Below are positions 21,136 to 36,781 of a stretch of DNA of 61,670 bases, piece after piece. Position numbers and translations under genes: made by a program. Below the pieces are notes generated by a model. The model saw only the letters and a list, made by a program, of their open reading frames with translations, ran no database searches and was not told the DNA's origin. The stretch comes from Sulfurimonas sp. (GTDB taxonomy: Bacteria; Campylobacterota; Campylobacteria; Campylobacterales; Sulfurimonadaceae), in contig JAMORK010000042.1 of NCBI GenBank assembly GCA_027063645.1, positions 1 through 61,670 on the forward strand. The letters are read 5' to 3'. Position 1 is the stretch's first letter, and every line of letters begins with the position of its first letter.

Positions 21136-22125
21136 ATGATATATTCTTTAATAAAATATTGTCTAGTTGTTACCCTTCTTATTTTTACAGGTTGTGCAAA
21201 ATCTCAAGAGGAAAAAGCATTAAAAATAGAAGACCAAAATGTAAGTATACGTATCGAAGCAGCTGTATACCCTAGTAAACGCGAAGATGTCCTTGCTTCT
21301 GTTGCAGGAAAGATAAAAAAACTTTATATTACTTATGGTGACAGGGTAAAAAAGGGTGATATTCTATACTCTTTAGATAAAGAGCTTATCAAACTAGATA
21401 TTCAAAATAAAAAAATTGAAGTTGCATCTTTAGAGAAAATTAGAAATAATTTTAAACGAAACCATAATGCATCTAGTAAAGAAGCTATAAACTTGGCTGC
21501 ACAAGAATTAAAAAAAGTTTCCAAGCTAAAAGCACAAGGCTATGTACGATCTTTTGAAGAAAACACTTACAAAAAAAACTACATTAATGCCGTTTACAAC
21601 AATAAAACGAAAGATAGTACCGATTACGAAAAACTCAATACACTTGAAACTAATTTAGCAACTAAAAAAATTGAATTGAAAAAGCTGGAGTATCAACTAA
21701 AACATGCCGATGCTTATGCTCATATTGATGGTTTTATTGTTGATATCCAAGTAAATGAGGGGGAATCAGTTAGTGAAGATAAAAAAGTGTGTATTATTGA
21801 AAACCTTGATTCCGTTATTGTTAGAGCAGGTTTTGCTAATGGTTTGCTTCCATTTATTCATATTGGTCAAATTGCTAAAATAAGCTTTGTCACATCGCCT
21901 CCTTACAATACTGAAGCGAAAGTAAACCGTATTGTCCCGATTGTTGATCCTGCATTTAAAAATATGACCTTAGATATTGAACTCCCGAACAATCATTACA
22001 TACTACAAGAGGGAACGCGAGCACTTGTAACACTTGAACTTACAAAAGAGGGGCAAGATAAAGTAAGAAAATACTTTATGCATAACAAAAGAGATAGAGT
22101 CGTAGAGATTCAATCAAAGATATAA
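21136..22125 (+). CDS. lipoprotein membrane-fusion (HlyD/RND adaptor) protein
   Basis: The 329-residue protein starts with a lipoprotein signal (hydrophobic stretch, then FTGC; C20 would be lipidated). It has a biotinyl-lipoyl-like half motif (SVAGKIKKLYITYGDRVKKGDILYSLD, cited in part), then a helical hairpin of about 100 residues. The second lipoyl half (HIDGFIVDIQVNEGESV) and a beta-barrel region end the protein. Adaptors of this type bridge an inner-membrane exporter and a TolC channel. No RND or ABC pump is adjacent, but a TolC-like gene lies in the facing operon. ATG 21136 is chosen because GGAG lies 6 nt upstream; an in-frame TTG at 21124 is less likely. Confidence 0.75.
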   Translation: MIYSLIKYCLVVTLLIFTGCAKSQEEKALKIEDQNVSIRIEAAVYPSKREDVLASVAGKIKKLYITYGDRVKKGDILYSLDKELIKLDIQNKKIEVASLEKIRNNFKRNHNASSKEAINLAAQELKKVSKLKAQGYVRSFEENTYKKNYINAVYNNKTKDSTDYEKLNTLETNLATKKIELKKLEYQLKHADAYAHIDGFIVDIQVNEGESVSEDKKVCIIENLDSVIVRAGFANGLLPFIHIGQIAKISFVTSPPYNTEAKVNRIVPIVDPAFKNMTLDIELPNNHYILQEGTRALVTLELTKEGQDKVRKYFMHNKRDRVVEIQSKI

Positions 22126-23520
22126 ATAAACTCTTCCTAAGGGAAGATTTTTATGTGTAAAAATATCTTTTTGAAATTTAAGATCTACTACAGTTGTCTC
22201 TTTTTGGCTTTTTAGGTAAATATTACTGTATGTATCTAGTATTGTTCTACCCCTCTTTAGATGGGGAGATTGTATTTTCAAGTATAACTCTTCAGAAGAT
22301 TGTTCACAAACTAATACAAACCCCTTTTCATAAAATCTTATATACCCTTCGAGTGTACCGATTTTTTCGTAACTCTCCCCAAGTGGAGCTCCTAAATCAT
22401 AAAAGTAAATCTCATCGCGTTCTAATTTTCTATTTGTTGGGATCTCTGCATAAACTAAATTATTGGTGAGTTTTGCCATTGCATAACTAAAATAGATAGC
22501 ATTTTTAGGTTTCACCTCTTTGTATAAAGGTAGATTCTTATACACTTTTTCATAATCAGGTGCAATATAATTTAAATAGATAAAATTTTTAAAACCATCT
22601 TTTTTATACTCTTTTTTGTATTTTGTAAGCATATCAATAAATTTTAACGAATCTGCGATACTCTGAGAATTATCATAAATAGGATAGTAATTTGTTACAC
22701 TTATTTCATCTACCCAACCCTTATTAAGAAGTTGCAATTTTATCTTTTTTGTCACATCAGTTGTGATGTAGCTTTCTGTCATATCATATGTGACATAAGG
22801 AAGTACAAACTGTTTTTGTCTAAAACCCTGATTTGTTACAACAAAAATATTTTTCTTTTTGAGTGTTTTATAAAATTTTTCAACAAGATCAAAATATTGT
22901 AGTTTAGGATTTAATTTTTTGAAATTGCTGAGTATCTCTTTATATGGTTTATCTAAAATATATTGTGCTGGAGCCCAATCAAAGAAAATACCATTAAACT
23001 TTTTTTCTTGCATATTATTGAGTAGATCAGCTACTCGTTTATCAAAGAGTTCCTCATTACCAAGATTGTAGTAATACTCACGACACCAATCGTAATGATT
23101 CTCTTTACAGTGAATAAATGGTCCCTCAGGATTTAAAGTGGTCTTTTCTCGGTGCTGATACAACCACTCAACAAAATCTCTATTTTCACCATCAGTATAA
23201 TAATACAATGCTGGCATCCAATCATAAGCAATATGATGTGGTATTTGCAATAAGCCTTGCTTTTTAAGAAGTGTGGCATTGACATTATTGTCTTCTACAT
23301 TACCTAACTCAACAATATTAAATTTCTTCATCCAAGTGAGTTCATCACCTTTTGCAAAAGGTGATGCAATAAGGTAGTCACCTTTCACCTCTTTTAAATC
23401 AGTGATTTTTGGGCTTTTGCTTGTTATATAATTTTCTTTTGATACAAGAGAAAATTGGTTTGCTTCTAGCGAAGAGAGTAATAATAAAAGAAATAAACTA
23501 TATTTTACAATAAGACTCAT
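22114..23520 (-). CDS. secreted glycoside-hydrolase-like (TIM-barrel) protein
   Basis: The 468-residue protein has a signal peptide (hydrophobic residues 4-20, cleavage near LEANQ). Its central domain resembles TIM-barrel putative glycoside hydrolases of the GH114/TM1410 kind: KFNGIFFDWAP with an Asp at a strand end, VVTNQGFR and the YVTYDMTESYI segment. In the Pel system PelA has a related hydrolase domain fused to a deacetylase; here the deacetylase is a separate gene two positions upstream. It is the last gene of the 13-gene operon, overlaps its upstream neighbour by 4 nt and the convergent adaptor gene by 12 nt. The exact family is uncertain. Confidence 0.6.
   Translation of the reverse strand: MSLIVKYSLFLLLLLSSLEANQFSLVSKENYITSKSPKITDLKEVKGDYLIASPFAKGDELTWMKKFNIVELGNVEDNNVNATLLKKQGLLQIPHHIAYDWMPALYYYTDGENRDFVEWLYQHREKTTLNPEGPFIHCKENHYDWCREYYYNLGNEELFDKRVADLLNNMQEKKFNGIFFDWAPAQYILDKPYKEILSNFKKLNPKLQYFDLVEKFYKTLKKKNIFVVTNQGFRQKQFVLPYVTYDMTESYITTDVTKKIKLQLLNKGWVDEISVTNYYPIYDNSQSIADSLKFIDMLTKYKKEYKKDGFKNFIYLNYIAPDYEKVYKNLPLYKEVKPKNAIYFSYAMAKLTNNLVYAEIPTNRKLERDEIYFYDLGAPLGESYEKIGTLEGYIRFYEKGFVLVCEQSSEELYLKIQSPHLKRGRTILDTYSNIYLKSQKETTVVDLKFQKDIFTHKNLPLGRVYLYL
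22132..22152 (+). terminator. terminator of galE-adaptor operon, inside the facing gene's 3' end
   Basis: TCTTCC (22132-22137) and GGAAGA (22142-22147) form a 6-bp stem with a TAAG loop followed by five T residues. It lies 7 nt past the adaptor stop codon and within the 3' coding end of the convergent glycoside-hydrolase-like gene. Confidence 0.6.
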
Positions 23521-24422
23521 TTTTTCAAAAGCTCCTTGAAGGAGAGTTTTTTTGTAATTAAAAAGATATACAGCAGTATAAAATCTACCGCAAATAAAAG
23601 TATATGAAAAATCGTTGCAGCAATGAGAGCATCTTCTGCATTCACATTATGAGCTGTTAAAAAAAGAACTACAGCAGCCTCATATGTGCCAATTCCAGCA
23701 GGTGCTAATGGGACAGAGAGTGCAATAGTAGAAAAGATAAATAGTTCTAATATCATAGAGATATTAAGGGAGAAATCTACTGCATAAAGGAAAAAAACAG
23801 CAGTAGAAGCAAAATACACTAACCATAATAGAAGACTGTAAAAAAGTAACGATAAAGGTTTTTGAAAAAGAGTATGTACACTTTTATAGATTTTTTGTAT
23901 ATAGATCCTCAAAAATCTAAAAGGTATTTTTTTAATAAGTATTAGTGCATATTTTGTATTGAAAAAAACAATTGTTAAGAGAATTAAAACACTCAAAAGT
24001 AGTATAGAGTTTTTTGCCATTTCATTTGAGACATAGGTATATGCCCACAGACAAAGAAGTAAAAATATAATTATTAGATCCAAAAAACGTTCTACAAACA
24101 TAATGGAGATAGTTTTATGATAACTATAGTTATAAAACTTCTTTAAATAAATGGCTTTTGAGACCTCTCCTAATTTTGCAGGTAAAATCATGTTCAGTGC
24201 ACTTGAAACAATAATAGTCTCAAAAGAGACTTTAAAAGAGAGAAGTGACATCTTCATCCAACGAATACTAAGTACAATTTGAGATACAAGAATAACAAAA
24301 AAGCTAAGAACAATACCTACAATAGAAAATTTTGATATATTGATTTTATCTATATCAAAATCATAAAGAAGATAGATAAAAATAGCTATAAGTAAAACTG
24401 TATTAAAAATTTTACTTTTCAT
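23517..24422 (-). CDS. LPG-synthase-type (UPF0104) membrane protein
   Basis: The 301-residue protein has about 7-8 transmembrane segments. It carries the UPF0104/lysylphosphatidylglycerol-synthase membrane pattern: LNMILPAKLGEVSKAIYLKK near residue 80, FVERFLDLIII near 105 and VPLAPAGIGTYEAAVV near 240. Such domains are proposed lipid flippases or transporters and are frequent in polysaccharide and glycolipid loci. It overlaps both neighbours (11 and 4 nt). Confidence 0.75.
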   Translation of the reverse strand: MKSKIFNTVLLIAIFIYLLYDFDIDKINISKFSIVGIVLSFFVILVSQIVLSIRWMKMSLLSFKVSFETIIVSSALNMILPAKLGEVSKAIYLKKFYNYSYHKTISIMFVERFLDLIIIFLLLCLWAYTYVSNEMAKNSILLLSVLILLTIVFFNTKYALILIKKIPFRFLRIYIQKIYKSVHTLFQKPLSLLFYSLLLWLVYFASTAVFFLYAVDFSLNISMILELFIFSTIALSVPLAPAGIGTYEAAVVLFLTAHNVNAEDALIAATIFHILLFAVDFILLYIFLITKKLSFKELLKK

Positions 24423-25164
24423 TTAAAATATCTTCTATCTTATTTTTTGCAAAACTAGAGGCATAAAAAGCTAAAATATAATCTATATTTACCCCAGCAT
24501 ATTGTAAAAAACTTTTAAGTAAATTTGTTTGCATCAGTTCATATGGATGAATGTACAGTATAGGATTTTTTGTTTTTTTAAATAAAATCTTAAGTATCCA
24601 AGTTGGTAGGACTCGCAGATAAAAACCACCACTAAAAGGAATTATATACTTTGGAATTGGTCGCTCTTGAACTTTTCCAAAATTTGTATATATATCAAAA
24701 GGATTTGTTTTATTTATGCTATTTCCATACATATAATTTTTCATTGGGAAATAAGATGAAGAGTATTTCAACCCAATTTTTGCTAAATGCTCATAGTATC
24801 TTTTTTCAAAAGGCATAGACCAGCTTGGACTTCTATACCCTAAAACTTTTTCACCTATTATCTCTTGGAGCAAATTTTTAGCTTTTAGGAGATCTGATGC
24901 CCATGTATCAAAATCTTCTTTATAAACTAAATTATGATGATAGCCATGGCATGCTATTTCTATATTTGCTTGAAAAAGTTTCTTAACAAGATGAGGATAT
25001 TTTTGAGCAAAACTGCCTAAAACAAATGCCGTTGCACTCTCCCCTCGACTCAGCTTTATAAATGTATCGATATACTCTTCATAATTTATAGCTGGTTCTT
25101 GCTTCCATTGAACATTAAAATTCATATCTACCACTTCTTCGACATCTATAGTAAGCCAAATCAT
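24412..25164 (-). CDS. polysaccharide deacetylase (CE4/NodB-like)
   Basis: The 250-residue enzyme starts MIWLTIDVEEV. D7 and E9/E10 take the place of the usual DD, as in exosortase (XrtA)-associated deacetylases. H73 and H77 (CHGYHH) look like the metal ligands, and YRSPSWSM is the motif-3 arginine segment. It would remove acetyl groups from an amino sugar. There is no signal peptide, so it acts in the cytoplasm or is not exported by Sec, unlike the periplasmic deacetylase domain of PelA. It overlaps the FemAB-like gene by 4 nt and the flippase-like gene by 11 nt. Confidence 0.8.
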   Translation of the reverse strand: MIWLTIDVEEVVDMNFNVQWKQEPAINYEEYIDTFIKLSRGESATAFVLGSFAQKYPHLVKKLFQANIEIACHGYHHNLVYKEDFDTWASDLLKAKNLLQEIIGEKVLGYRSPSWSMPFEKRYYEHLAKIGLKYSSSYFPMKNYMYGNSINKTNPFDIYTNFGKVQERPIPKYIIPFSGGFYLRVLPTWILKILFKKTKNPILYIHPYELMQTNLLKSFLQYAGVNIDYILAFYASSFAKNKIEDILNEK

Positions 25165-26060
25165 AAATCAACCAGGTATTTACAAAGTTTTGGACCAATA
25201 AAGTCAACCATTTTTTTAGGAAGTTTTTTCCAGATATCAGAAGCTAAAGAATATCTTGCATATATATCAATCTCTTGTGAAGAGTGGATATCTATCTTTA
25301 CTGGATTTGCACCAAATTGAGATTTGAATTTATAAGTGCTCCCCCCATAAGAGGATCTTCCAAAATCAAATATTTTACTTTGTGTATTATCACAAATATA
25401 TTTAAGTGTTTCCCAATAAATTTGATAGCCTGCGAGTTTACTATTGTACTCACTACGAACGCCACCCCAAGGGTACCAAGCTATCTCTTCATCAAGTAAA
25501 ATACACATTGTAGCTATAACTTCATGCCCATCATAAAGGTTAAAAAAGATGATATTTTCTCCAAACTCCTCCACTAAATTATAAAATATCTTTTTATCTA
25601 AAAGTGGTGTGCCATGTTTATACATAGTTGATGAGAAAATAGTATAAAAATCTTCTATATCTTGAGATCTGTTTCCATATTGCATTGAAAAATTAAACTT
25701 TTTAAATGCATTTCTCACCTTGTTTCTACATCTTGATTTTACATCTTGTGCGAAGAGTTCTTCACTTGTTTTATCTTCAATACTTACTCTCATAGTAACT
25801 GTATCATCTGTTATAAAACTATCATACTCAAAGTTTAAAGCTCTTATCTGATACTCGTTGTCTTTAGCTAATTCTAACAGATCTTCAATATTATCACTTC
25901 GTCTATCTGTATAGTTTAACAAAGGCAAATAACTTAATGTTTTTGCACCTGTTATAGAAGGGACAACAACAAAGTCCATATATTTTGGATAATTATAAAG
26001 CTTATTGAGAGCTTTTGTAAATCTCATTACAAAAGAGTTTGTTAATAAGGTCTTATTCAT
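25161..26060 (-). CDS. FemAB/GNAT-type acyltransferase-like protein
   Basis: The 299-residue protein has the two-lobed GNAT look of FemAB-like proteins tied to exopolysaccharide and PEP-CTERM loci. CRNKVRNAFKKFNFSM lies mid-protein, the acceptor helix is AGYQIYWETLKYICD, and the signature is FDFGRSSYGGSTYKFKSQFG (near residues 230-250). It may transfer an acyl or aminoacyl group to a sugar or lipid intermediate; the substrate is unknown. It overlaps the DUF2304 gene by 8 nt and the deacetylase by 4 nt. Calling it FemAB-like rests on the C-terminal signature. Confidence 0.65.
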   Translation of the reverse strand: MNKTLLTNSFVMRFTKALNKLYNYPKYMDFVVVPSITGAKTLSYLPLLNYTDRRSDNIEDLLELAKDNEYQIRALNFEYDSFITDDTVTMRVSIEDKTSEELFAQDVKSRCRNKVRNAFKKFNFSMQYGNRSQDIEDFYTIFSSTMYKHGTPLLDKKIFYNLVEEFGENIIFFNLYDGHEVIATMCILLDEEIAWYPWGGVRSEYNSKLAGYQIYWETLKYICDNTQSKIFDFGRSSYGGSTYKFKSQFGANPVKIDIHSSQEIDIYARYSLASDIWKKLPKKMVDFIGPKLCKYLVDL

Positions 26061-26385
26061 CTTCTATTTTCTTTGCATTTTGTTTTGCAGTCTCTCGAAT
26101 AATGGTCGTAATCATTTGATTATGATTTTTTTGATTCACATATAAAATAATATTTACAAGTACCGTTAGTGCTAAAACGATATAAACAATAAGATCCGTA
26201 CCACTTTGAATCGAAAATACATGAGCGATACTATCTGAATATTCAGGTTTTAAAATCAATAAAAACACAAGAGCATAACCACCAAGGACACTTAGTTTTT
26301 GAAAAATTTTCAGTTTTGAAGAAAAAGAAAAAATTAAAAATGCTAAAGTAAGAACACTAATCAGAAAAAATTTAATAATTATCAT
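26053..26385 (-). CDS. DUF2304-like small membrane protein
   Basis: The 110-residue protein has three hydrophobic helices (about residues 3-20, 32-47 and 67-85) and the GTDLIVYIVLAL region found in DUF2304 proteins, which often sit beside DPM1-type glycosyltransferases, as here. It ends in a charged tail. It overlaps the GT2 gene by 4 nt and the FemAB-like gene by 8 nt. Its role is probably to anchor or assist the GT2 enzyme, by inference from context. Confidence 0.6.
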   Translation of the reverse strand: MIIIKFFLISVLTLAFLIFSFSSKLKIFQKLSVLGGYALVFLLILKPEYSDSIAHVFSIQSGTDLIVYIVLALTVLVNIILYVNQKNHNQMITTIIRETAKQNAKKIEDE

Positions 26386-27074
26386 TTCATTATACTCCCA
26401 GTAAAATAATCAAGAATGATGTTTATACTATTCCACATTGACTGACCTTTTTCTATTGTATATTCTGTATATCTTATCTCACAAGGTTTTTCAATATATT
26501 TCATATCTAATGATTTAATAATACTAATAATCTCAGAAGCATGTGCCATTCTATTTTGAGTAATCTTAAAATTTGGATACTTACTGATATGAATAGCTCT
26601 AAAGCCATTATGTGAGTCTGTCAACCAAAGTCCAGTCGTGAGCCAAGTAAAAATTCTTGAGGCTTGTAAAAGATACCTTTTTCGTGTAGGCATATTTTTA
26701 GTTTTTCCTAAAAATCTTGAGCCAAGCACGATATCAGCCTCATTATTCTCTAATGCCTCAACAAAAGGCACAATGTCGTAAGGGTTATGTTGTCCATCTG
26801 AATCAAAAGTGATAGCATAATCACATCCTAAGGTAAGTGCATATTCTAAGCCTGTTTGTAAAGCAGCTCCTTGTCCAAGGTTTATAATATGTTTTAGCAT
26901 ATATATACCTTTTAAAGAAGCTTTCTCATAACTTTTATCGCTAGAGCAATCATCTACAACAACAATATAATAAGAGGGGTATAAAGATTGCAACTCTTCT
27001 AAAACACCTTGTATCACCTTCTCTTCATTATATAAAGGTATGACAATGGCAACTTTTGCATTTTCTAAAGACAC
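26382..27074 (-). CDS. family 2 glycosyltransferase, DPM1-like
   Basis: The 230-residue cytoplasmic enzyme has the GT2 nucleotide-sugar core VAIVIPLYNEEKVI and VVVDDCSSDKSYE, then the metal-binding DSD in ITFDSDGQHNPYD and the acceptor-side DSHNGFRA. This subfamily usually moves a sugar to a polyprenyl phosphate. It has no membrane domain, so the neighbouring DUF2304 protein may tether it. It lies 1 nt after the HD-GYP gene. Confidence 0.8.
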   Translation of the reverse strand: MSLENAKVAIVIPLYNEEKVIQGVLEELQSLYPSYYIVVVDDCSSDKSYEKASLKGIYMLKHIINLGQGAALQTGLEYALTLGCDYAITFDSDGQHNPYDIVPFVEALENNEADIVLGSRFLGKTKNMPTRKRYLLQASRIFTWLTTGLWLTDSHNGFRAIHISKYPNFKITQNRMAHASEIISIIKSLDMKYIEKPCEIRYTEYTIEKGQSMWNSINIILDYFTGSIMK

Positions 27075-27075
27075 A

Positions 27076-28572
27076 TTAATCCTTTTTTGCTTTAATTTTC
27101 ATAATTTTTGTTTTGAGTGATTTTTCAATATCTAAAAAAGCATCTACAACGACGGCATTGAACATTTTTTTACTTAAATCTTTAATAATCTCAACTGCCT
27201 CTTCATGTGTTTTGCCCTCCTTATAAGAACGATCGCTCGTCACTCCAACATAAAACTCCCCAAGTGAAACAATCTGTGCATCTAAAGGAATCTGAGACTC
27301 TTTCAATCCAAAAGGGTACCCTTTTCCATCAAAACGTTCATGATGATATTTTATAATATTTTCAATAGGATACAGATGACAAATAGGCTCTACAATAATA
27401 CCACCAATAAGAGGATGCTCCTTAATGAGATTCATATCTTGCTCTTCTAACTCCTCTTTGTCAATAGCTACCAATAAGTCTCCAACCATTCCGATATCAT
27501 GTAAATAAGAACCTAATTGAATTGTATCAATCTCTTTTTCAGAAAGAAAAAGAGATTTGGCAATTTCTACAGAGATCGTTTGTACAATAAGGGAGTGATT
27601 CTTGTAGTAAGGATTTTCTAACTCAATTGCATCGTTTGTAAATCGTAAGAAAGAGAGATAATTCTTAATAGTTTCACTTTCATAATCTGTATTGACTAAG
27701 AATCCACCTGCCATATCTAAAAATGAACCAACCTGAGTAATTGTTTCTTGTTTTAAAGGTTTTGTATCGTAAAACTCTAACTTATAGGGTGTATTTCTAA
27801 TAAAAAAAACTTTTTTCAATGAAGCATTTTCACTAGGAGCTTGTTCAAAAACAAGTGCACCCTCTTTAGTAAAAAGCTTTACACCTTCTGCTTTGGTAAT
27901 TTTAATAACCAATGAGATAAAAAATTTGAAAAATTGATTTTTATCCATCTGCAATTTCATAAGAGAACTAGAGGTGCTTTTACCTAAACTAGATTGTGTT
28001 TCGCCACCTTTAAAATTAAAACTTTTTGATACCTGTTCGTAATAAGTAAGCATAATATCAAAATAGCCATAATAAGGTTTCAGATCAAATGTATAAAAAC
28101 TAAAAAACATCATCATCTGATTTTGACTACTATTTGCTATACTGTACACTTTATAGTTACCACTTTTTTGAAAATCATCAATATCTTTTTTTCCTATTCT
28201 AAAGGGAGCAGCCACATCAGTGTTAGTGCTCGTGTTTGTCTCTATTAAGATATAAGTTTCGCCTCTTAATTCATACAGAGCAAGATACTTTGCATTCACC
28301 AGTTTTGCACTTTCAAGTAAAATTTTCTCAACATCTTTTATCTGTGTTTGAAGGCTTAATTTTTGTAAGAATGTATTAAACTCCAAATTTTTACTTTCCA
28401 AATAAACCTTTTGTCTAAAAATATTGAGCATAAAGAAAAAGAAAAAGAGAGAAAAAAGCCCAAAAATCCACCACCATTGTTCTAAAAAAGTATTTATTTG
28501 ATCTAAATTATATAAAATTATATCGGGGAGAATATTATTTAAATAATATCTACTTTGCTCAAAAAAACTCAT
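27076..28572 (-). CDS. membrane-anchored GAF-like/HD-GYP domain protein
   Basis: The 498-residue protein has one transmembrane helix (about 35-52), a coiled or linker region, and two GAF-like stretches (about 70-190 and 207-295). An HD-GYP domain follows (about 310-490). In it, H326, H358-D359, H386, H410-H411 and the DGKGYP loop (415-420) are present. The Lys of the usual HDxGK is Met362, and the Asp of the usual AD motif is Glu439. HD-GYP enzymes hydrolyse cyclic di-GMP; with these changes the protein may be active, altered or only a sensor. It sits where a c-di-GMP receptor (PelD) would be expected in a Pel locus. It overlaps the preceding gene by 4 nt. Confidence 0.8.
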   Translation of the reverse strand: MSFFEQSRYYLNNILPDIILYNLDQINTFLEQWWWIFGLFSLFFFFFMLNIFRQKVYLESKNLEFNTFLQKLSLQTQIKDVEKILLESAKLVNAKYLALYELRGETYILIETNTSTNTDVAAPFRIGKKDIDDFQKSGNYKVYSIANSSQNQMMMFFSFYTFDLKPYYGYFDIMLTYYEQVSKSFNFKGGETQSSLGKSTSSSLMKLQMDKNQFFKFFISLVIKITKAEGVKLFTKEGALVFEQAPSENASLKKVFFIRNTPYKLEFYDTKPLKQETITQVGSFLDMAGGFLVNTDYESETIKNYLSFLRFTNDAIELENPYYKNHSLIVQTISVEIAKSLFLSEKEIDTIQLGSYLHDIGMVGDLLVAIDKEELEEQDMNLIKEHPLIGGIIVEPICHLYPIENIIKYHHERFDGKGYPFGLKESQIPLDAQIVSLGEFYVGVTSDRSYKEGKTHEEAVEIIKDLSKKMFNAVVVDAFLDIEKSLKTKIMKIKAKKD

Positions 28573-30743
28573 TCTTTTTCCTTCTTTTTATCTCTTAAGT
28601 ATTGTATATAATTCCGATTATCAATGGAGTAAACAGTAACTGTTTTTGTCTTATAATATACCCTCATATTATCATGTGTCATTTGGTAGATTGCTAACCA
28701 GCTTTTTAACTGAGTTTGAAATTTTTCTCTCCATCTATAAAACCATTCTTCCATCCCTTTATATGCATTTGGATAATTTTCTACAAATATATATATCTTT
28801 TCTGTTGGAATAGCTAAGTACTTCTCAGCTGGAGAATAATCAAGGATTAAGTTTTGTGTATTTATATGGTAACCCTTATCTAGAATTTTAGCATAAGTTT
28901 GAATATAGGCAACAGCCGTCCAGCTATAAGGTCTATTCTCTTTATCAATTTTCATAATAATTTCTGGAATAGATGTATACTGCGTTTGGTTTATATTTTT
29001 CCAAAACTCTTCTGTATCAATCCATCTAGGTGTGCTAAGTACTAAAAACAAGAAAATCACATACATTAAAAAAAGTAATACGGAATTTGCATATTTTTTA
29101 AATATAGAAATAAATGGTTTTTGGATTAAATAATGAAAATAAAATGCCCCAAGTAAAGTCATAGCAAAAAAGAGGTACTCAATAAGTCTGCCTTGTTTTG
29201 TTAAAAGTGGTAAACCTGCATTTGGGCCAAAATAGATTAAAAAAACTCCAAGAATTATCAATAAATAAGAAGTGTTCAAAAATCTTTTCTTTGAAAAAAA
29301 TGCTATGATAAAGGCAAATGCCAAACTAGCAAACATCAATAGATGGAACTTAGAAATATTGATAATAGAAACTATAGAAAATCCTGTTTTTGCAATATTT
29401 TCAACATTTTTTTGAGTTCCTAAAAGTTTGTCTAGTATAGGAGCTGCTGCACCAAAATCTTGAGGAATACCATACTTTATCATAGAAAGAATCCATAAGT
29501 TACCAAATATTGCAGCAAAGATAATAGCAATAGTACCTCTTGTAAGTAATCTCCAATTTAGTTTCATAAAAAGAAGTGCATTTAATGCAATAAGCATACT
29601 TATAAATATAAGTACAATAGCCCCACCCCCATGAAATATAAAAACAAGCATCAAGGTTAAAGAGTAGAGAATAAGGTACTTTAGTAATTGTGTTTTAAAA
29701 ACTTTTATAAGAAAATAAGCATTGAGTAAAACAAATACGGAAGCATGCTCATATGCCATTCCAGATACATACCTTATGTATGTATAGTAACCCTCTAGAT
29801 GTCCTTGGGTTTTCACCTCTTGTAAACTTGGCATATAAAATTTCATATTAAAAAAATCTACAATATGAGGATTGGCTGTTGTCACAATCTCTCCTATAAG
29901 TAAATTTGACATTGGACTCATAAAAATCAAACCATGAAGAATAACACCAAAAAGAGCCGTATATTTAGAATCACTAAAGTCTTTAATAACATAATATATA
30001 GATATGTAAAGTGCAATAAGCAAAAGTAACGGATAGAGACTAAAAAGTATAATAGGATCAATATTTGTAAAAACATTGATAAAAAATATCATAATAGAGA
30101 TACCGTAAAAATCTGCTCCAAAGGTTTTATTGTCTGCATATAAATTATTATGTTGAAGATAATTCACCCATTCCATAAATTGAGCAGTATCACTTACAGG
30201 ATCACTGTAGCTCATCAGCCCTCGTGTTATGAGTATAGATAAGATATATGTAAAAACACTATAAAAAAGAACTTTTTTTGAAAGAGTAAAAAAACTAATG
30301 CGAGACTCAATTAAGAGTATTTTTTCTTTAATATTTGAGATAACCTGTTGTTTAAATCCTTGAGGATCATCTAAAATATCTAATGATTTTAACATAAGCT
30401 TCACCCTAAGATTATGTACTAGTTCACGAATACTTCTATGATAATAAAATTTTTCAAAGGCGAGTCTAGTTCCAACAAGTACTACAAGGAAAAAGATAAG
30501 ACTAAAAATTTTCACAAAAACCAATAAAGGTATTACAAGTTCAATATATGCACTCATATAGATAAAATTAAAAGTTAATTTTTGAACACTGCTAACGGTT
30601 TGGGATTGTGGAAAAATCTTTGTTGGCAACCAAACAAAAAGCATATAAGAAACCATCAAAAGTTTCATTACATACCAGATGTTTTTTGCAACAAAAGAGT
30701 AGACCATGCCTAAATCAATAAAATAGACATCTTGAGGGAACAC
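28569..30743 (-). CDS. large multi-pass membrane protein, possible GT-C or polymerase
   Basis: The 724-residue protein has an N-terminal pair of helices, a cytosolic loop (about 100-155), then around ten more helices up to about residue 575, and a soluble C-terminal domain of about 130 residues. The loop after the third helix (SDPVSDTAQFMEWVNYL) carries Asp residues at the membrane edge. Together with the long helix bundle this resembles GT-C-type transferases or Wzy-like polymerases. I cannot assign a family. It lies 4 nt after the lipoprotein gene and overlaps the HD-GYP gene by 4 nt, so the two may form a complex. Confidence 0.6.
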   Translation of the reverse strand: MFPQDVYFIDLGMVYSFVAKNIWYVMKLLMVSYMLFVWLPTKIFPQSQTVSSVQKLTFNFIYMSAYIELVIPLLVFVKIFSLIFFLVVLVGTRLAFEKFYYHRSIRELVHNLRVKLMLKSLDILDDPQGFKQQVISNIKEKILLIESRISFFTLSKKVLFYSVFTYILSILITRGLMSYSDPVSDTAQFMEWVNYLQHNNLYADNKTFGADFYGISIMIFFINVFTNIDPIILFSLYPLLLLIALYISIYYVIKDFSDSKYTALFGVILHGLIFMSPMSNLLIGEIVTTANPHIVDFFNMKFYMPSLQEVKTQGHLEGYYTYIRYVSGMAYEHASVFVLLNAYFLIKVFKTQLLKYLILYSLTLMLVFIFHGGGAIVLIFISMLIALNALLFMKLNWRLLTRGTIAIIFAAIFGNLWILSMIKYGIPQDFGAAAPILDKLLGTQKNVENIAKTGFSIVSIINISKFHLLMFASLAFAFIIAFFSKKRFLNTSYLLIILGVFLIYFGPNAGLPLLTKQGRLIEYLFFAMTLLGAFYFHYLIQKPFISIFKKYANSVLLFLMYVIFLFLVLSTPRWIDTEEFWKNINQTQYTSIPEIIMKIDKENRPYSWTAVAYIQTYAKILDKGYHINTQNLILDYSPAEKYLAIPTEKIYIFVENYPNAYKGMEEWFYRWREKFQTQLKSWLAIYQMTHDNMRVYYKTKTVTVYSIDNRNYIQYLRDKKKEKE

Positions 30744-30747
30744 TGCT

Positions 30748-32052
30748 CTACCTTTTGTGAATTGTGAATTCTACTCTACGATTTTTAGCTCTTCCCTCTG
30801 CATGTTTATTTGAAGCTATAGGATTAAACTCACCATACCCAATAGCTCTTATGCGTCTAGCATCTACACCCATATCAACAAGAGCTTCTTTTACTGCATT
30901 TGCTCTTAGCACTGATAATCTTTTATTGTATTTTTGTGAAGCAACATTGTCTGTATAGCCAACAAGAGATAATGTAGCTTCTTTATGCGCTAATAAATAC
31001 TCTGCTATTGGTTCTAGCACATGCAAACTTCCCTTGAGAAGTTTAGCTGAATTGTATTCAAAATTCAGATTTTCAAGAATCATTGGTTTATTTTCCACAA
31101 TAGGTGCTACTGCTATAGCCTCTCTCTTTAAATACCCTTTTTCCAATAGGTATCGTAAAAGTTTCCAACGAAGTAGCTCTCCATCATATCTTTTATCTTT
31201 AAATTCAAATGGTCGAATAAATACAACGGCTCCCTTTCCATAAGGGATTATAGAAACAATTGGAGATCCTTTAGTATTTGATAAAAGGGTTTTCCCTTCA
31301 GCTATAAAGTCAGCGGCTAAATAGTAGTTTGTATCTATCTTTAAGTCTTTTATATCTTGAAAATAATGGATAGGACTTTTTGGCTTGAACTTAAGTGTTA
31401 AAGGAACATAATTTACTTGATCTATATTTTTACTTTTGTAGATATGTGTATATACTTTTCTGTCAAAGAAATGTAGATGAGCACTTTTTGAAGCAATTTT
31501 TTCACTAATTCGCTTTGGATCAATGTAGCCACTATGTTTAAATGTATCATATCTTGTAGAATAAATTCCACCCTCTACCCAAAAGATTCCACCTTGTCCA
31601 ATCCACCATTGAAGAATCTCTTGCTCTTTATGTGAGAGATTATAGCTATATGCGATATCTTCAAAGAGATCATTTGAAACATGTAAAAACTTATTTGCCC
31701 ATGTTGGTAAGACATAAATAAAATCTTCTGAAAAAGGGTTTGTTCTTAGTTTCCAAAAATCGACATCTTTAATATGTGAAGCATAATAATTATAGTGAAT
31801 TTTATCATAGAACTGATTAGAGAACTTACCATCAAAATCTAATATAGGTTGATTTGAGATAAATGGAAACTTCTTAAGAAGTATTGCTCTATTGTCAGTT
31901 TTTCTATATACATGATCTACTGTTATGTCATAAATATCGACTGTCTCAGGTGTTAAGATTTTATCTTCTAGCTGTACTTCTTGCTGAGTACTGCATCCAA
32001 TAGTAAATGATAAAAATACCACAAGAAGGGAGTTTAATGCCAATGTTTTCAT
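30748..32052 (-). CDS. lipoprotein with C-terminal OmpA-like domain
   Basis: The 434-residue protein has a lipobox (FTIGC, lipidated C20) and a large N-terminal domain of about 300 residues (WIGQGGIFWVEGGIYS, SIIPYGKGAVVFIRPFEFKD) reminiscent of DUF4159/GATase-like proteins. A peptidoglycan-binding OmpA domain follows (about 320-434) with LVGYTDNVASQKYNKRLSVLRA and the GEFNPIASN and GRAKNRRVEF motifs. It would be held in the outer membrane and grip the cell wall, perhaps stabilising the export channel. It lies 19 nt after pelG. Confidence 0.75.
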   Translation of the reverse strand: MKTLALNSLLVVFLSFTIGCSTQQEVQLEDKILTPETVDIYDITVDHVYRKTDNRAILLKKFPFISNQPILDFDGKFSNQFYDKIHYNYYASHIKDVDFWKLRTNPFSEDFIYVLPTWANKFLHVSNDLFEDIAYSYNLSHKEQEILQWWIGQGGIFWVEGGIYSTRYDTFKHSGYIDPKRISEKIASKSAHLHFFDRKVYTHIYKSKNIDQVNYVPLTLKFKPKSPIHYFQDIKDLKIDTNYYLAADFIAEGKTLLSNTKGSPIVSIIPYGKGAVVFIRPFEFKDKRYDGELLRWKLLRYLLEKGYLKREAIAVAPIVENKPMILENLNFEYNSAKLLKGSLHVLEPIAEYLLAHKEATLSLVGYTDNVASQKYNKRLSVLRANAVKEALVDMGVDARRIRAIGYGEFNPIASNKHAEGRAKNRRVEFTIHKR

Positions 32053-32071: not shown

Positions 32072-33649
32072 TTAAAATGATGAATAATAATAATATTCTA
32101 GTTTTTTAAACATCTGTACAGAGTAATAAAAGCTTATTGCCCAAAAAACTATACTGCCAAACAACAATCCATAAATAGCATATTCTAAACCAAACATTCT
32201 ACTTAATACGACACCAATTAAAAGATTAACTACAGAAGCTGTTAAAATTGCCTTGAGTGAAAAATTTTGTCTTGAGAACGAAAACATAAAAAGAACATTC
32301 ATAAGACCATTAACCATAAAAGCATATGACACAGCTGCTATCCAATAAATAAATGGTGTAAAACTTTTGAAAAAATCTTTCGTAAACTCATAATCCATAT
32401 ACTTGTCTAATAAGTATACAGCATAATATGTAAGAATAATAATAATTATAGAAACGATTAAGTAAGCCAGATTGAATTTTTTGAAAAAACTATAAATTTT
32501 ATTGTTAAACTCTTGATATTCAGAGTACTTATACTTTATAACCAAGTCATTAATTCTATACATAAATTCATGAATACTGATTTCGGTAAGACCCATAAGT
32601 AAAACAAGTGCAATAAGAGCCCAGTCTAATCCTAATTCATAAGGTACATTAAACCAAATAAAATAAGGCTTCGCCTCCATATAATTACTCCATGCAACCA
32701 TTCTATCTGTCACTAAGAAAATAAAATAAAGAAACCCATAAAGATAAAATGGGATAAGAGAATAAAAGAGTATGGAAGCCCTTGGCGTTCCCTCCCCCTC
32801 AGCACTTAAATCTTTTCTTTTAAGATTCCTGATTTTTATAAAGGTAAAAAAGATGATAAGTGCATCTAAAACAACTAAAGATATAAACTGTGCTTCTGGT
32901 AAACGAACCTTAAGAATACTATGTGAAATATAAGTAAAAATAACACCTAAAATAAAGAAGAAAAGAATGGTATTATACTCTTCAAACATATAGTAAATGG
33001 CAATATTTAAGAATAAGACAGAGAGTAAAAAATAAAATGCAACCATTATAAAAAAATAATAGCTTGGAAATATTTCAAAAAATATATTGAACAATATAAG
33101 AAAAGAACCAATAGTAAAAACAAGTATATACCCGATGCTAAGTAGTTTTCTTGTTATGTTGGCAGCAAGTATAACCTCCCCTTGCTTGAGGTAAAAGAGT
33201 CCCTTCCTTCCGATAGCTTGAGCAGAAGCTCCAGTAACTATAAGTGCTAAAAAGGTACCAACTGCAATTACCGTTGCTTTTGTTTTGTCCATCTCTAGTC
33301 CTGACCAAATTGCATAACCTATGGAGAGTGTAAAAAATATTTGTACAAACATTGGCATAGCAAAAGCTAAACCACGAAGATAGTTTTTTACCATTCTTAG
33401 AAATAATGGAGGTAAATCTTCAAAATTTACAAGAGATTTAGTAGGGTATTGTTTTACATCTCTATATTGCATCATATATTTTGCCATCTCAAAAACATTT
33501 TCAAAACCATACTCTTGCTGTGCATCGATATCTCTAATTCCATATACTTCTAAAAGTGCTGTAATCTCCCAAAAATCAAGTGGTTTTCCTCTCTCTTGAG
33601 TTATATTTTTATATAACTCACTAAGATCTCTAGTTGTAGCTACCTCCAC
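32072..33649 (-). CDS. pelG: PelG-like MATE/Wzx-type membrane transporter
   Basis: The 525-residue protein has about 12 transmembrane helices and the PelG-like segment LIPFYLYGFLYFIFLVTDRMVAW. A cytosolic N-terminal extension of about 100 residues (WEITALLEVYGIRDIDAQQ and onward) precedes the first helix. The P. aeruginosa protein is about 456 residues, so the extension accounts for the extra length. PelG is the inner-membrane transporter of the Pel system and works with PelF. It overlaps pelF by 10 nt. Assignment follows from sequence flavour plus the neighbouring pelF. Confidence 0.75.
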   Translation of the reverse strand: MEVATTRDLSELYKNITQERGKPLDFWEITALLEVYGIRDIDAQQEYGFENVFEMAKYMMQYRDVKQYPTKSLVNFEDLPPLFLRMVKNYLRGLAFAMPMFVQIFFTLSIGYAIWSGLEMDKTKATVIAVGTFLALIVTGASAQAIGRKGLFYLKQGEVILAANITRKLLSIGYILVFTIGSFLILFNIFFEIFPSYYFFIMVAFYFLLSVLFLNIAIYYMFEEYNTILFFFILGVIFTYISHSILKVRLPEAQFISLVVLDALIIFFTFIKIRNLKRKDLSAEGEGTPRASILFYSLIPFYLYGFLYFIFLVTDRMVAWSNYMEAKPYFIWFNVPYELGLDWALIALVLLMGLTEISIHEFMYRINDLVIKYKYSEYQEFNNKIYSFFKKFNLAYLIVSIIIIILTYYAVYLLDKYMDYEFTKDFFKSFTPFIYWIAAVSYAFMVNGLMNVLFMFSFSRQNFSLKAILTASVVNLLIGVVLSRMFGLEYAIYGLLFGSIVFWAISFYYSVQMFKKLEYYYYSSF

Positions 33650-35136
33650 TCTCGACCCTTTTCACTCATAAACTCTATATAAAGATCTTTATATACTTTT
33701 CCATAACTCTCTACCATATCTTCTATGGTAAATCCATTGAGTATAGATTCTCTAGCATCCATCCCCATATCTTTCGCAATCTCCGGATTTTTAAGTACAT
33801 AAAGCACTTTATCGGCAAACTCTTGATAATCTTTTGGCTTCACAACAAAACCATAATCTTCAAGTACCTCTTTTGTTCCTCCAACATCAGAAGAAACAAC
33901 AACTTTTTCACAAGCCATCGCTTCAATAACTACAAAAGGAAAGGCTTCAGAGATACTTGTAAGCATAACAACATCCCCTTCGTTATAAGCTGTTTGAGGG
34001 CTACTTGTTAAACCTGCAAAAGAGAAGTTGCTTTCTAATTGTAGTTCCTCTACTAAATTTTGACAGATATGATAATACTTTTCATCCACTATAGGTCCAT
34101 AGAGTTTAAAAAGGACATTTGGTACTTCTTGCCTTACAATCTCTGCAGTTCGTATATATGTTTCAATATCTTTTAAAGGATCAATTCTAGCAACCATCAC
34201 AACAGTTGGTCTATCATCCTCTTTTTCTACATCAAATTGTTTAAATACATTGGTATCTATGCCATTATAGATTGTTTGAATCTTTGCCTCGTCTACTCCC
34301 CACTTTTTCTCCCATCGTGAGTTGTAATCACAAACAGGAGAAACAATATCTGCAAAATGAAAGTTTAATTTAGAAACAAGAGTAATTAACCCCATAAGGA
34401 ACTCTTTTGTTCTATATGGCGTTTGGTTTCTTGAGTTTGCTAAATACTGCTCTCGTATGTAAACGCCATGCTCTGTTAGTAAGAACTTACTTCCATACTT
34501 TTTTTTAGCAATAATACAAGAAAGCCCACAAAATGCAGCTGCCGATGAGTGATAAATATGAGCTTCAGGCAGAGTAGGAAGCAGAGAAATAAAAAATCTA
34601 TAAAGATAACGTAATCCCTCTATCATATCAAAAGTACTAGGGATATCCTCTTGTGTATCTTTAAAGTGTTCTAAAAAATACTCTTTATATATCTCCCATA
34701 GGTCTTCACTTCTAAAAGTTTCATAATAATCATAAGTTTGAAAGTACTCATAAAACTCATAAATAGAATCACCTAAGCCATTTAAATCTTCTTTATTTCT
34801 ATAAATATGATCAAGAACCAATACCATCATAGGTCGTAATATATCCATATGATTTTCATTTTGTGTTTTGATTTTTGCTTCGTATATTTTTGAAAATTCA
34901 ATTTTTCGTATATATTCTATTGGTTCTTCTGTTCCCCATAAAGGAACATTTATAATATCTACAACATTTGGGGGAATATTGAATTTCACTTTTACAAAAG
35001 GGTGCATCTGTATAGGTATCAATACAAAGTCGATATTTTTTAATTCATGCATTAAAATATCAGCCCATGTACTTACACCACCTGTAACATAGGGATATGT
35101 TCCCTCACCAGTCCAAACAATTTTTATTCTACTCAT
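33640..35136 (-). CDS. pelF: PelF-like GT4 glycosyltransferase
   Basis: The 498-residue cytoplasmic enzyme starts with the typical PelF text IKIVWTGEGTYPYVTGGVSTW. It has the GT4 core in its C-terminal half: VARIDPLKDIETYI, then FAGLTSSPQTAYNEGDVV, and the EX7E region in SEAFPFVVIEAMACEKVV. P. aeruginosa PelF (about 507 residues) polymerises Pel from UDP-GalNAc. The length and N-terminus agree well. It overlaps the TolC-like gene by 8 nt and pelG by 10 nt. Confidence 0.88.
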   Translation of the reverse strand: MSRIKIVWTGEGTYPYVTGGVSTWADILMHELKNIDFVLIPIQMHPFVKVKFNIPPNVVDIINVPLWGTEEPIEYIRKIEFSKIYEAKIKTQNENHMDILRPMMVLVLDHIYRNKEDLNGLGDSIYEFYEYFQTYDYYETFRSEDLWEIYKEYFLEHFKDTQEDIPSTFDMIEGLRYLYRFFISLLPTLPEAHIYHSSAAAFCGLSCIIAKKKYGSKFLLTEHGVYIREQYLANSRNQTPYRTKEFLMGLITLVSKLNFHFADIVSPVCDYNSRWEKKWGVDEAKIQTIYNGIDTNVFKQFDVEKEDDRPTVVMVARIDPLKDIETYIRTAEIVRQEVPNVLFKLYGPIVDEKYYHICQNLVEELQLESNFSFAGLTSSPQTAYNEGDVVMLTSISEAFPFVVIEAMACEKVVVSSDVGGTKEVLEDYGFVVKPKDYQEFADKVLYVLKNPEIAKDMGMDARESILNGFTIEDMVESYGKVYKDLYIEFMSEKGREWR

Positions 35137-36781
35137 AAAGTTCTTTTTTTCCCGTGAGTATACCTAAAATAAACATCTCTTTTGTGTAATTTTCTTCAAG
35201 ATCTAAGAGTTGCAATGTATAATTTAAATAACTTGTTAAAGCATTCGAGTAGTCTCTGTATTGTGCAGTTCCTATAAAATACTCCTCTTTAGCAATAATA
35301 ATTTTTTTACTTGCTAAAGCCACCTGTTTTTCAAGTATCTCTTTTTGTTCTTGAAATCTTTGAATAGAATTGTATGAGTATTCGATAGCCAATAACACTT
35401 CTCTCGATTTTGCAGATAAAACACTTTTTTGTTTTAAAATAGCATTGAGTTCTTTGTCTTTATTTAAAATAATATCTTTACGATTATAGATAGGAATTTG
35501 AAATGTCAATCCAGCTTCCCAATAAGTTGACATTCCAGTTGTATTGATATTTTCAAAATAGAGTGCATCATTCGCCGTACCATATCCAAGATGAGACTGA
35601 AAATTTATAGTTGGGTAATAGCGTCTTGTTTGTGCAATAAAATCTGTTTGATTGATTTTTAATTTATTGGATTCTAATGCTATATCACTACTGTTTTGAA
35701 TTGCTTGTTTTTGTAGATCTACTAAAGAAGCTAAATGAAAATTGATTTTCTCTTGAAAAAGTTTATAAGGTTTTTCACCCTTAGATTTTATACTATGTTT
35801 TAAAATATTTTCATTATGCACATGAATATATTTTTGATTAAGCACTACTCTTTGTAAAGAAAAAAGACCATTCTGTGCATCTATATTGTCTAATGATGAA
35901 TTTTTCCCCTCATTATAACCTTTAGAGATTATAAGAGTCATCGATTTTTGTTTCTCATATATCTCTTCATATATACGAAGCTTTTCTTGAGAAGTGTACA
36001 GATTGGAGTATATGCTTAAACCTAAAATAGCCAACTTCTCTTTTGCATTCAATGCGGTAATATCTGCGAGTCTTTTATTTAAAATATCGTATGTATGATT
36101 AATAAGGCTATACTGTCCATCGTATAGAAGCTTATTTGCATTAAGTGCAACACCAACACCTGACTCTTTAAATGCACCCGTTTGTACATTGGGTATATTT
36201 AACTGTTGTGTAGATATATACTGACCCGTTCTTGCATACCCATCTACATAGATGTCAAAATTATAACGATCTTTTTGTATTTCATTTAATAAATAATCAA
36301 TCTTTTTTTGGTAAAAAAGCTCTTCTGCATTATCGTTGTATTCAAATAAAGCTGAAAGATATGTAGTAAATTCTAAAGGATCATAGGATCTTGATGGAAA
36401 AAACTTTTCTGATTCTTCTGATTGGTATATTGGTGCAGTTTTTGGTTCGTTTAAAAGAGGTCTTTGAGGAACTTGAATATTTTTAATCTCTTTTTTTTGA
36501 GAAACCTCTCTTTGACAATTTATAATAAATGCATGTTTATAACTCTTTTGTACTTGAGAAAGTTCTTTTTTAATCTCTTTATATTTTTTATGTGAAGCTA
36601 ATTTAAAAACATAGTATTTTTTTTGTTTTTCTATTACTGCAGATGGGTATTGATTAAGAAACTTCTCTTTTTCTTTCAAATCAAGCTTGGGTGCAGAACT
36701 TGCAATAATACAAAATTCTTGTGCAAAAAGAGAAGAGAAGCTTAAAAAGATCCCAATTAATAATAAAAATTTATTTGTCAT
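35129..36781 (-). CDS. TolC-like outer-membrane factor with N-terminal SPOR-like module
   Basis: The 550-residue protein has a signal peptide (cleavage near LFAQE) and a 70-residue module with SPOR-like features (EFCIIASS at the start, YYVFKLASHKKYKEIKKEL, then HAFIINC). A proline-rich linker leads to the OEP/TolC region from about residue 130 (LSIYSNLYTSQEKLRIYEEI, TYWEAGLTFQIPIYN, YSYNSIQRFQEQKEILEKQ). The module's cysteines C24 and C89 could form a disulfide. TolC proteins are trimeric channels joined to adaptors, and an adaptor gene faces this operon. In P. aeruginosa the Pel exit is PelB/PelC instead. Confidence 0.75.
   Translation of the reverse strand: MTNKFLLLIGIFLSFSSLFAQEFCIIASSAPKLDLKEKEKFLNQYPSAVIEKQKKYYVFKLASHKKYKEIKKELSQVQKSYKHAFIINCQREVSQKKEIKNIQVPQRPLLNEPKTAPIYQSEESEKFFPSRSYDPLEFTTYLSALFEYNDNAEELFYQKKIDYLLNEIQKDRYNFDIYVDGYARTGQYISTQQLNIPNVQTGAFKESGVGVALNANKLLYDGQYSLINHTYDILNKRLADITALNAKEKLAILGLSIYSNLYTSQEKLRIYEEIYEKQKSMTLIISKGYNEGKNSSLDNIDAQNGLFSLQRVVLNQKYIHVHNENILKHSIKSKGEKPYKLFQEKINFHLASLVDLQKQAIQNSSDIALESNKLKINQTDFIAQTRRYYPTINFQSHLGYGTANDALYFENINTTGMSTYWEAGLTFQIPIYNRKDIILNKDKELNAILKQKSVLSAKSREVLLAIEYSYNSIQRFQEQKEILEKQVALASKKIIIAKEEYFIGTAQYRDYSNALTSYLNYTLQLLDLEENYTKEMFILGILTGKKELYE

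Follow-up and report, generated by a model that had tools for sequence, protein, structure and literature searches.

A catalytically altered HD-GYP protein encoded in a Pel-like operon of Sulfurimonas sp., a plausible c-di-GMP receptor

Locus organization

The window analysed here is the whole 61,670-nucleotide stretch of contig JAMORK010000042.1 (assembly GCA_027063645.1) from Sulfurimonas sp. It carries a gene for an HD-GYP-type protein (the regulator), located in a co-directed run of genes, most of which overlap by 4-11 bp. The genes of this run, in the order in which they are read, are as follows.

35129..36781, minus strand: TolC-type outer-membrane protein, with which the conserved cassette begins (Pfam OEP and synteny)
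33640..35136, minus strand: PelF glycosyltransferase (NCBIfam PelF equivalog, 168 bits against a cut-off of 100; DUF3492, 135 bits)
32072..33649, minus strand: PelG-like exporter, a weak match (PF16933, 20.4 bits against a cut-off of 29, residues 99-522)
30748..32052, minus strand: lipoprotein with a C-terminal OmpA domain (Pfam), a domain missing from shorter orthologues
28569..30743, minus strand: partner protein of 724 aa with a predicted GT-C fold at residues about 150-711; 4-bp overlap with the HD-GYP gene
27076..28572, minus strand: HD-GYP-type regulator, 498 aa, ATG start (open reading frame)
26382..27074, minus strand: GT2 protein, PpgS-like (polyprenyl-phospho-GalNAc synthase; NCBIfam, 195 bits, below the cut-off of 370)
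26053..26385, minus strand: DUF2304 small membrane protein (Pfam)
25161..26060, minus strand: FemAB/GNAT-like protein
24412..25164, minus strand: polysaccharide deacetylase (Pfam Polysacc_deac_1 and DUF3473)
23517..24422, minus strand: LPG_synthase_TM membrane protein (Pfam)
22114..23520, minus strand: putative secreted glycoside hydrolase (a weak resemblance to GH114, confined to the Nitrospirota orthologue)

The cassette order OEP-PelF-PelG-lipoprotein-GT-C-HD-GYP is constant in every sufficiently long Campylobacterota contig. An hhalign comparison of the PelG-like protein with a partial canonical PelG gave no significant similarity, and none of the cassette genes was named as PelA, PelB, PelC or PelE by Pfam or NCBIfam; the deacetylase, the candidate hydrolase, the TolC-type protein and the lipoprotein could be functional counterparts of Pel components. 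The OmpA domain of the lipoprotein is found in Sulfurimonas-type loci and is absent from those of the Nitratiruptor, Arcobacteraceae and Nitrospirota types.

The 724-aa partner matched no Pfam or NCBIfam family. Its AlphaFold2 (AF2) model (pLDDT 80.6) resembles STT3, PglB, ArnT and PMT (VIA Z 12-18.6), and the protein is predicted to be a GT-C-fold glycosyltransferase. D185 is present in 17/18 copies, and the model places this Asp after the first helix of the GT-C domain, in what would be the first external loop. PelE was rejected as the identity of the partner on the GT-C fold of the part from residue about 150 on. The approximately 150 extra membrane residues at the N-terminus carry a conserved motif, FPQ, which reads KIFPQ in the window. 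At one locus (L118:5622-13613), the HD-GYP gene is flanked by three tandem GT-C gene copies, one of which encodes Gln at the position where Asp (D185) is constant elsewhere. The PpgS-like GT2 and DUF2304 genes are found in most clusters and could supply a polyprenyl-phosphate sugar; their position (26053..27074) near the deacetylase gene suggests an amino-sugar decoration pathway.

Domain architecture of the regulator

From N- to C-terminus, the regulator comprises a membrane helix, two GAF-like domains and an HD-GYP domain:

28417..28482, minus strand: hydrophobic segment, predicted membrane anchor (residues about 31-52, within helix 3-73; sequence and AF2)
28018..28341, minus strand: first GAF-like domain (residues about 78-185; AF2; VIA Z about 11-12 against GAF domains)
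27703..27942, minus strand: second GAF-like domain (residues about 211-290; AF2)
27085..27675, minus strand: HD-GYP domain (residues about 300-496; Pfam, PDB sequence matches and fold match)

The AF2 model (20 orthologues in the alignment, pLDDT 80) has a single long helix, residues 3-73, that contains the membrane segment, and a connecting helix between the two GAF-like domains. Residues 313-469 match Pfam HD_5 (E 3.3e-24, 86 bits against a cut-off of 27), with a second match to HD (E 3.6e-13), and the HD-GYP motif HHERFDGKGYP is present together with the HD domain. In VIA fold comparisons of the model, the HD-GYP part matches PA4781 (4r8z) and PmGH at Z 24.9 and the c-di-GMP-bound form of DvhD (9rbz) at Z 24.0. 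A reading of this DNA made from its sequence only had described a membrane-anchored GAF-like/HD-GYP protein; this description is borne out, with the GAF-like part resolved into two domains by the model. A motif in the second GAF-like domain, F[YF]IRNTP[YF], is constant across the Campylobacterota orthologues and partly kept in the Nitrospirota orthologue (as VRNTD, with RNT retained).

Active-site substitutions

Residue equivalences were taken from an alignment of the regulator with PmGH (4mcw), in which the metal ligands are E185, H189, H221, D222, H250, H276, H277 and D305 (PMC4159591). Four substitutions stand out:

27487..27489, minus strand: M362, replacing the conserved K of HDxGK (PmGH K225); the motif is H358-D359-I-G-M362
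27256..27258, minus strand: E439, replacing metal ligand D305; the usual AD is here G438-E439
27247..27249, minus strand: V442, replacing PmGH D308
27613..27615, minus strand: N320, replacing PmGH D183, the partner of K225 in PmGH

The first two had been picked out by the sequence-only reading, as HDIGM (Met362) and GE (Glu439), and both are confirmed by the codons in the DNA and by the alignment with K225 and D305. The same reading held that the other metal ligands and GYP remain, which is correct for the histidines and the HD pair (H326, H358, D359, H386, H410 and H411) and for GYP; however, the positions of D183, R192 (I329 in the regulator) and D308 are also altered, and Y322 aligns with E185. 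As judged from the alignment, the change to the active site is therefore larger than first stated, with the D183, R192, K225, D305 and D308 positions all altered. The c-di-GMP-contact positions R448 (equivalent to R314) and K451 (equivalent to K317) are retained.

In PmGH, alanine at D183, K225 or D308 has an impact on activity like that of metal-ligand loss, while D305A and E185A keep detectable activity, reduced for D305A (PMC4159591). Single-residue rules from PmGH are not universal, since VCA0681 is active without D308 (PMC4212101).

Conservation of the substitutions

When conservation among orthologues was checked, M362 and E439 were both fixed in 34/34 proteins, the most distant being a Nitrospirota protein with 25% identity. 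These 34 are 11 orthologues found by full-length homology plus loci from a scan of named genomes, and are not all independent species. The scan of genome contigs used the motifs HDIGM and KxF[YF]IRNTP, so that M362 in loci L097-L119 is partly a product of selection; E439 and the other sites lay outside the motif selection, and among the 11 orthologues found by homology alone Met is present in 11/11, Glu in 11/11, and D308 is never Asp. Matches in Shimwellia, Firmicutes and Clostridium (L120-L122) were set aside as unrelated pattern matches: their HDIGM lies in a separate first HD domain, and the HD-GYP domain that aligns with that of the regulator has HDLGK or HDIGK.

The remaining substitutions follow the same pattern. 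Asn or Ser occupies the D183 position in all 34 proteins, each of which also has Met at the K225 position; the HDxGK lysine and D183, the PmGH catalytic pair, taken here as a mark of an active phosphodiesterase, are thus absent throughout. D308 is replaced by V, I, A, S or T, R192 by I, M, K or T, and E185 mostly by Y, as in the bimetallic Y/F subfamily (PMC4159591). All 34 keep the metal-ligand positions H189, H221, D222 (the HD pair includes the latter), H250, H276 and H277, as well as GYP, with Glu at D305, and the PmGH c-di-GMP contacts Y285, R314 and K317 are kept as Y, R and K/R. In a comparison set of 32 further HD-GYP domains from the genus, K225, D305 and D308 are each present in 32/32; the D183 position is Asp in 25/29 and the R192 position Arg in 29/31. 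Since the substitutions are fixed across orthologues while K225, D305 and D308 are intact in the other HD-GYP domains of the genus, the loss is not drift. On this alignment, the fixed signature does away with the catalytic pair and with the pair R192-D308, and leaves in place most of the metal ligands and the residues that contact the nucleotide.

Distribution and relationship to PelD

In the Pel biofilm systems known so far, the gating component is PelD, a receptor of the degenerate GGDEF type. In a survey of 397 Campylobacterota-class genomes, PelF (scored as DUF3492 above cut-off) was found in 30, PelD_GGDEF (Pfam) in 19 and an orthologue of the regulator in 9. The orthologue always occurs with PelF (9/9 genomes; chance 2e-11 over the 397 genomes), and among the 30 PelF-positive genomes it never co-occurs with PelD (chance 4e-6 under independence). 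A custom HMM built from local PelDs found a PelD-like frame in the two leftover PelF genomes, bringing PelD to 21/21 canonical loci, and found no PelD in the window or in HD-type loci. PelD_GGDEF (PF16963) had no match in the regulator or in its own genome; that genome is 54% complete, which makes the absence there weak when taken alone, and the other eight carriers are given as 98-100% complete. The GAF part of the regulator showed no significant relation to PelD by hhalign (E 0.012, probability 3.6). With no significant match by PF16963, the PelD HMM or hhalign, the idea that the regulator is PelD in disguise was rejected.

A PelF tree splits exactly according to whether the regulator is PelD or the HD-GYP protein; the split is fully supported and its branch very long, and PelD occurs only with the second, deeply separate PelF lineage. 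The two lineages are mutually exclusive within this class. The split and the long branch point to a Pel-like lineage that stands apart and has a regulator of its own, not to a one-gene swap. The earlier placement of the protein "in the place of PelD" therefore stands as mutual exclusion (9 against 19 genomes, none shared) and fails as simple gene replacement: the lineage is deeply diverged, its gene order is different, PelG is weak, and no PelB, PelC, PelD or PelE was recognised.

The carriers are some sulfur-oxidising bacteria of vents and sediments. In Nitrospirota 1/295 genomes carries the system, and a wider spread there was rejected on that count. The Nitrospirota contig (L119) carries the complete system in a rearranged order: PelF and PelG are encoded on the opposite strand, and a hydrolase-like gene separates the GT-C gene from the HD-GYP gene. 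A contig labelled Chlorobiota (L116) has Campylobacterota-type genes and is probably misbinned. We found no description of this operon in the open-access papers searched; the conserved variant is real and apparently undescribed.

Proposed function

A role as a c-di-GMP receptor is plausible from the residue pattern. We favour, with a probability of roughly 0.6, a catalytically impaired HD-GYP protein that binds c-di-GMP without efficient hydrolysis and gates the Pel-like machine, as PelD does in Pel. The regulator would be a dedicated c-di-GMP-responsive subunit whose HD-GYP domain still has its nucleotide pocket and the majority of its metal ligands, but not the residue pair for efficient hydrolysis, so that c-di-GMP would be bound without being efficiently destroyed. 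Binding would alter a dimer of the helix-GAF-GAF stalk, and this change would gate, presumably by direct contact with the synthase, a membrane complex of PelF, the PelG-like exporter and the GT-C partner. By analogy with PelD, the direction of control may be activation. The regulator's own genome encodes 20 GGDEF domains despite its 54% completeness, so c-di-GMP signalling is present.

The closest precedent in function is DvhD of Desulfovibrio vulgaris (9rbz, 9rc0), a biofilm regulator whose catalytically inactive HD-GYP domain has been proven to act as a c-di-GMP receptor, binding c-di-GMP without hydrolysing it and switching a dimer stalk (PMC13090378). DvhD and the regulator share the HD-GYP fold, and both are membrane proteins that join a sensory domain to a catalytically altered HD-GYP. 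DvhD differs in its target, an adhesin protease, in having a periplasmic dCache domain and a PAS domain, and in its loss of the HD and metal histidines, which the regulator keeps while changing K, D183, D305 and D308.

The PelD of Pseudomonas aeruginosa and Bacillus cereus is likewise membrane-anchored, GAF-containing and encoded in an operon with PelF, and c-di-GMP control of polymer output is probably common to both proteins. The GGDEF of PelD is degenerate and contains an RxxD I-site, whereas the regulator has an HD-GYP, no GGDEF and a different partner gene. Streptococcal PelD, which has no GGDEF, is another Pel operon regulator unlike the GGDEF type that binds c-di-GMP (PMC7112168). In that case the receptor domain has just been lost, whereas the regulator has a cyclic-dinucleotide domain of another kind. 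The exclusion with PelD could also reflect two unrelated operon types and not a shared function, which would count against the receptor.

A variant of the receptor reading, doubtful in our view and overlapping with it in probability, is that the regulator mainly controls the GT-C partner and polymer modification, not synthesis by PelF/PelG. The two genes overlap by 4 bp and adjoin in the Campylobacterota contigs that hold both, and a possible source of polyprenyl-phosphate sugar accompanies most clusters; however, the cassette contains the PelF and PelG-like genes just as constantly, and gene order alone does not demonstrate contact.

The sequence-only reading had offered either a receptor or a slow phosphodiesterase. 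This pair of options stands, and the residue pattern appears to favour the receptor. The active phosphodiesterases PmGH and PA4781 share with the regulator the fold, HD, the four metal histidines, GYP and the R314/K317 positions (PmGH also the combination of GAF and HD-GYP), and differ from it in K225 (to M), D305 (to E), D308 (to V), D183 (to N), and its two GAF-like domains and membrane helix. A slow or conditional phosphodiesterase that lowers c-di-GMP in the vicinity of the synthase, or a trigger enzyme with turnover as the signal, is rather unlikely. The six His/Asp ligands and the Glu are invariant in the 34 proteins, suggesting that metal is still bound and that some chemistry may remain; DvhD has lost its metal ligands, and their invariance here, the chief doubt about the receptor reading, makes a slow enzyme or a metal-dependent receptor possible. 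The residual activity of PmGH D305A (PMC4159591) and the activity of VCA0681 (PMC4212101) point the same way. Against this, alanine at either K225 or D183, positions changed in 34/34 orthologues, abolished PmGH activity (PMC4159591), and the lysine is present in 32/32 other HD-GYPs of the genus.

Less likely again is a distinct Pel-like secretion class in which a metal-loaded, non-hydrolysing HD-GYP with Met and Glu serves as a built-in receptor gating the GT-C protein and PelF, possibly reading c-di-GMP and metal or redox state. It is improbable that the altered metal site responds not to c-di-GMP but to metal, redox state, oxygen, NO or a different nucleotide. A Met and a Glu that never vary, next to a metal site intact in other respects, suggest specialisation and not decay, and the two GAF-like domains provide further ligand pockets, but the three PmGH c-di-GMP contacts are kept in 34/34. 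Random pseudogene decay was rejected, as the reading frame is intact and many metal and pocket residues are invariant down to 25% identity.

Significance

The operon points to a putative polysaccharide machine, so far uncharacterised, in Campylobacterota of vents and sediments. If the receptor reading is true, the control problem solved in Pel by PelD would be solved in this Pel-like system by a disabled c-di-GMP-degrading domain. The HD-GYP receptor role seen in DvhD would be extended to polysaccharide synthesis, and the fixed signature would provide sequence rules for separating metal-holding HD-GYP receptors from active enzymes.
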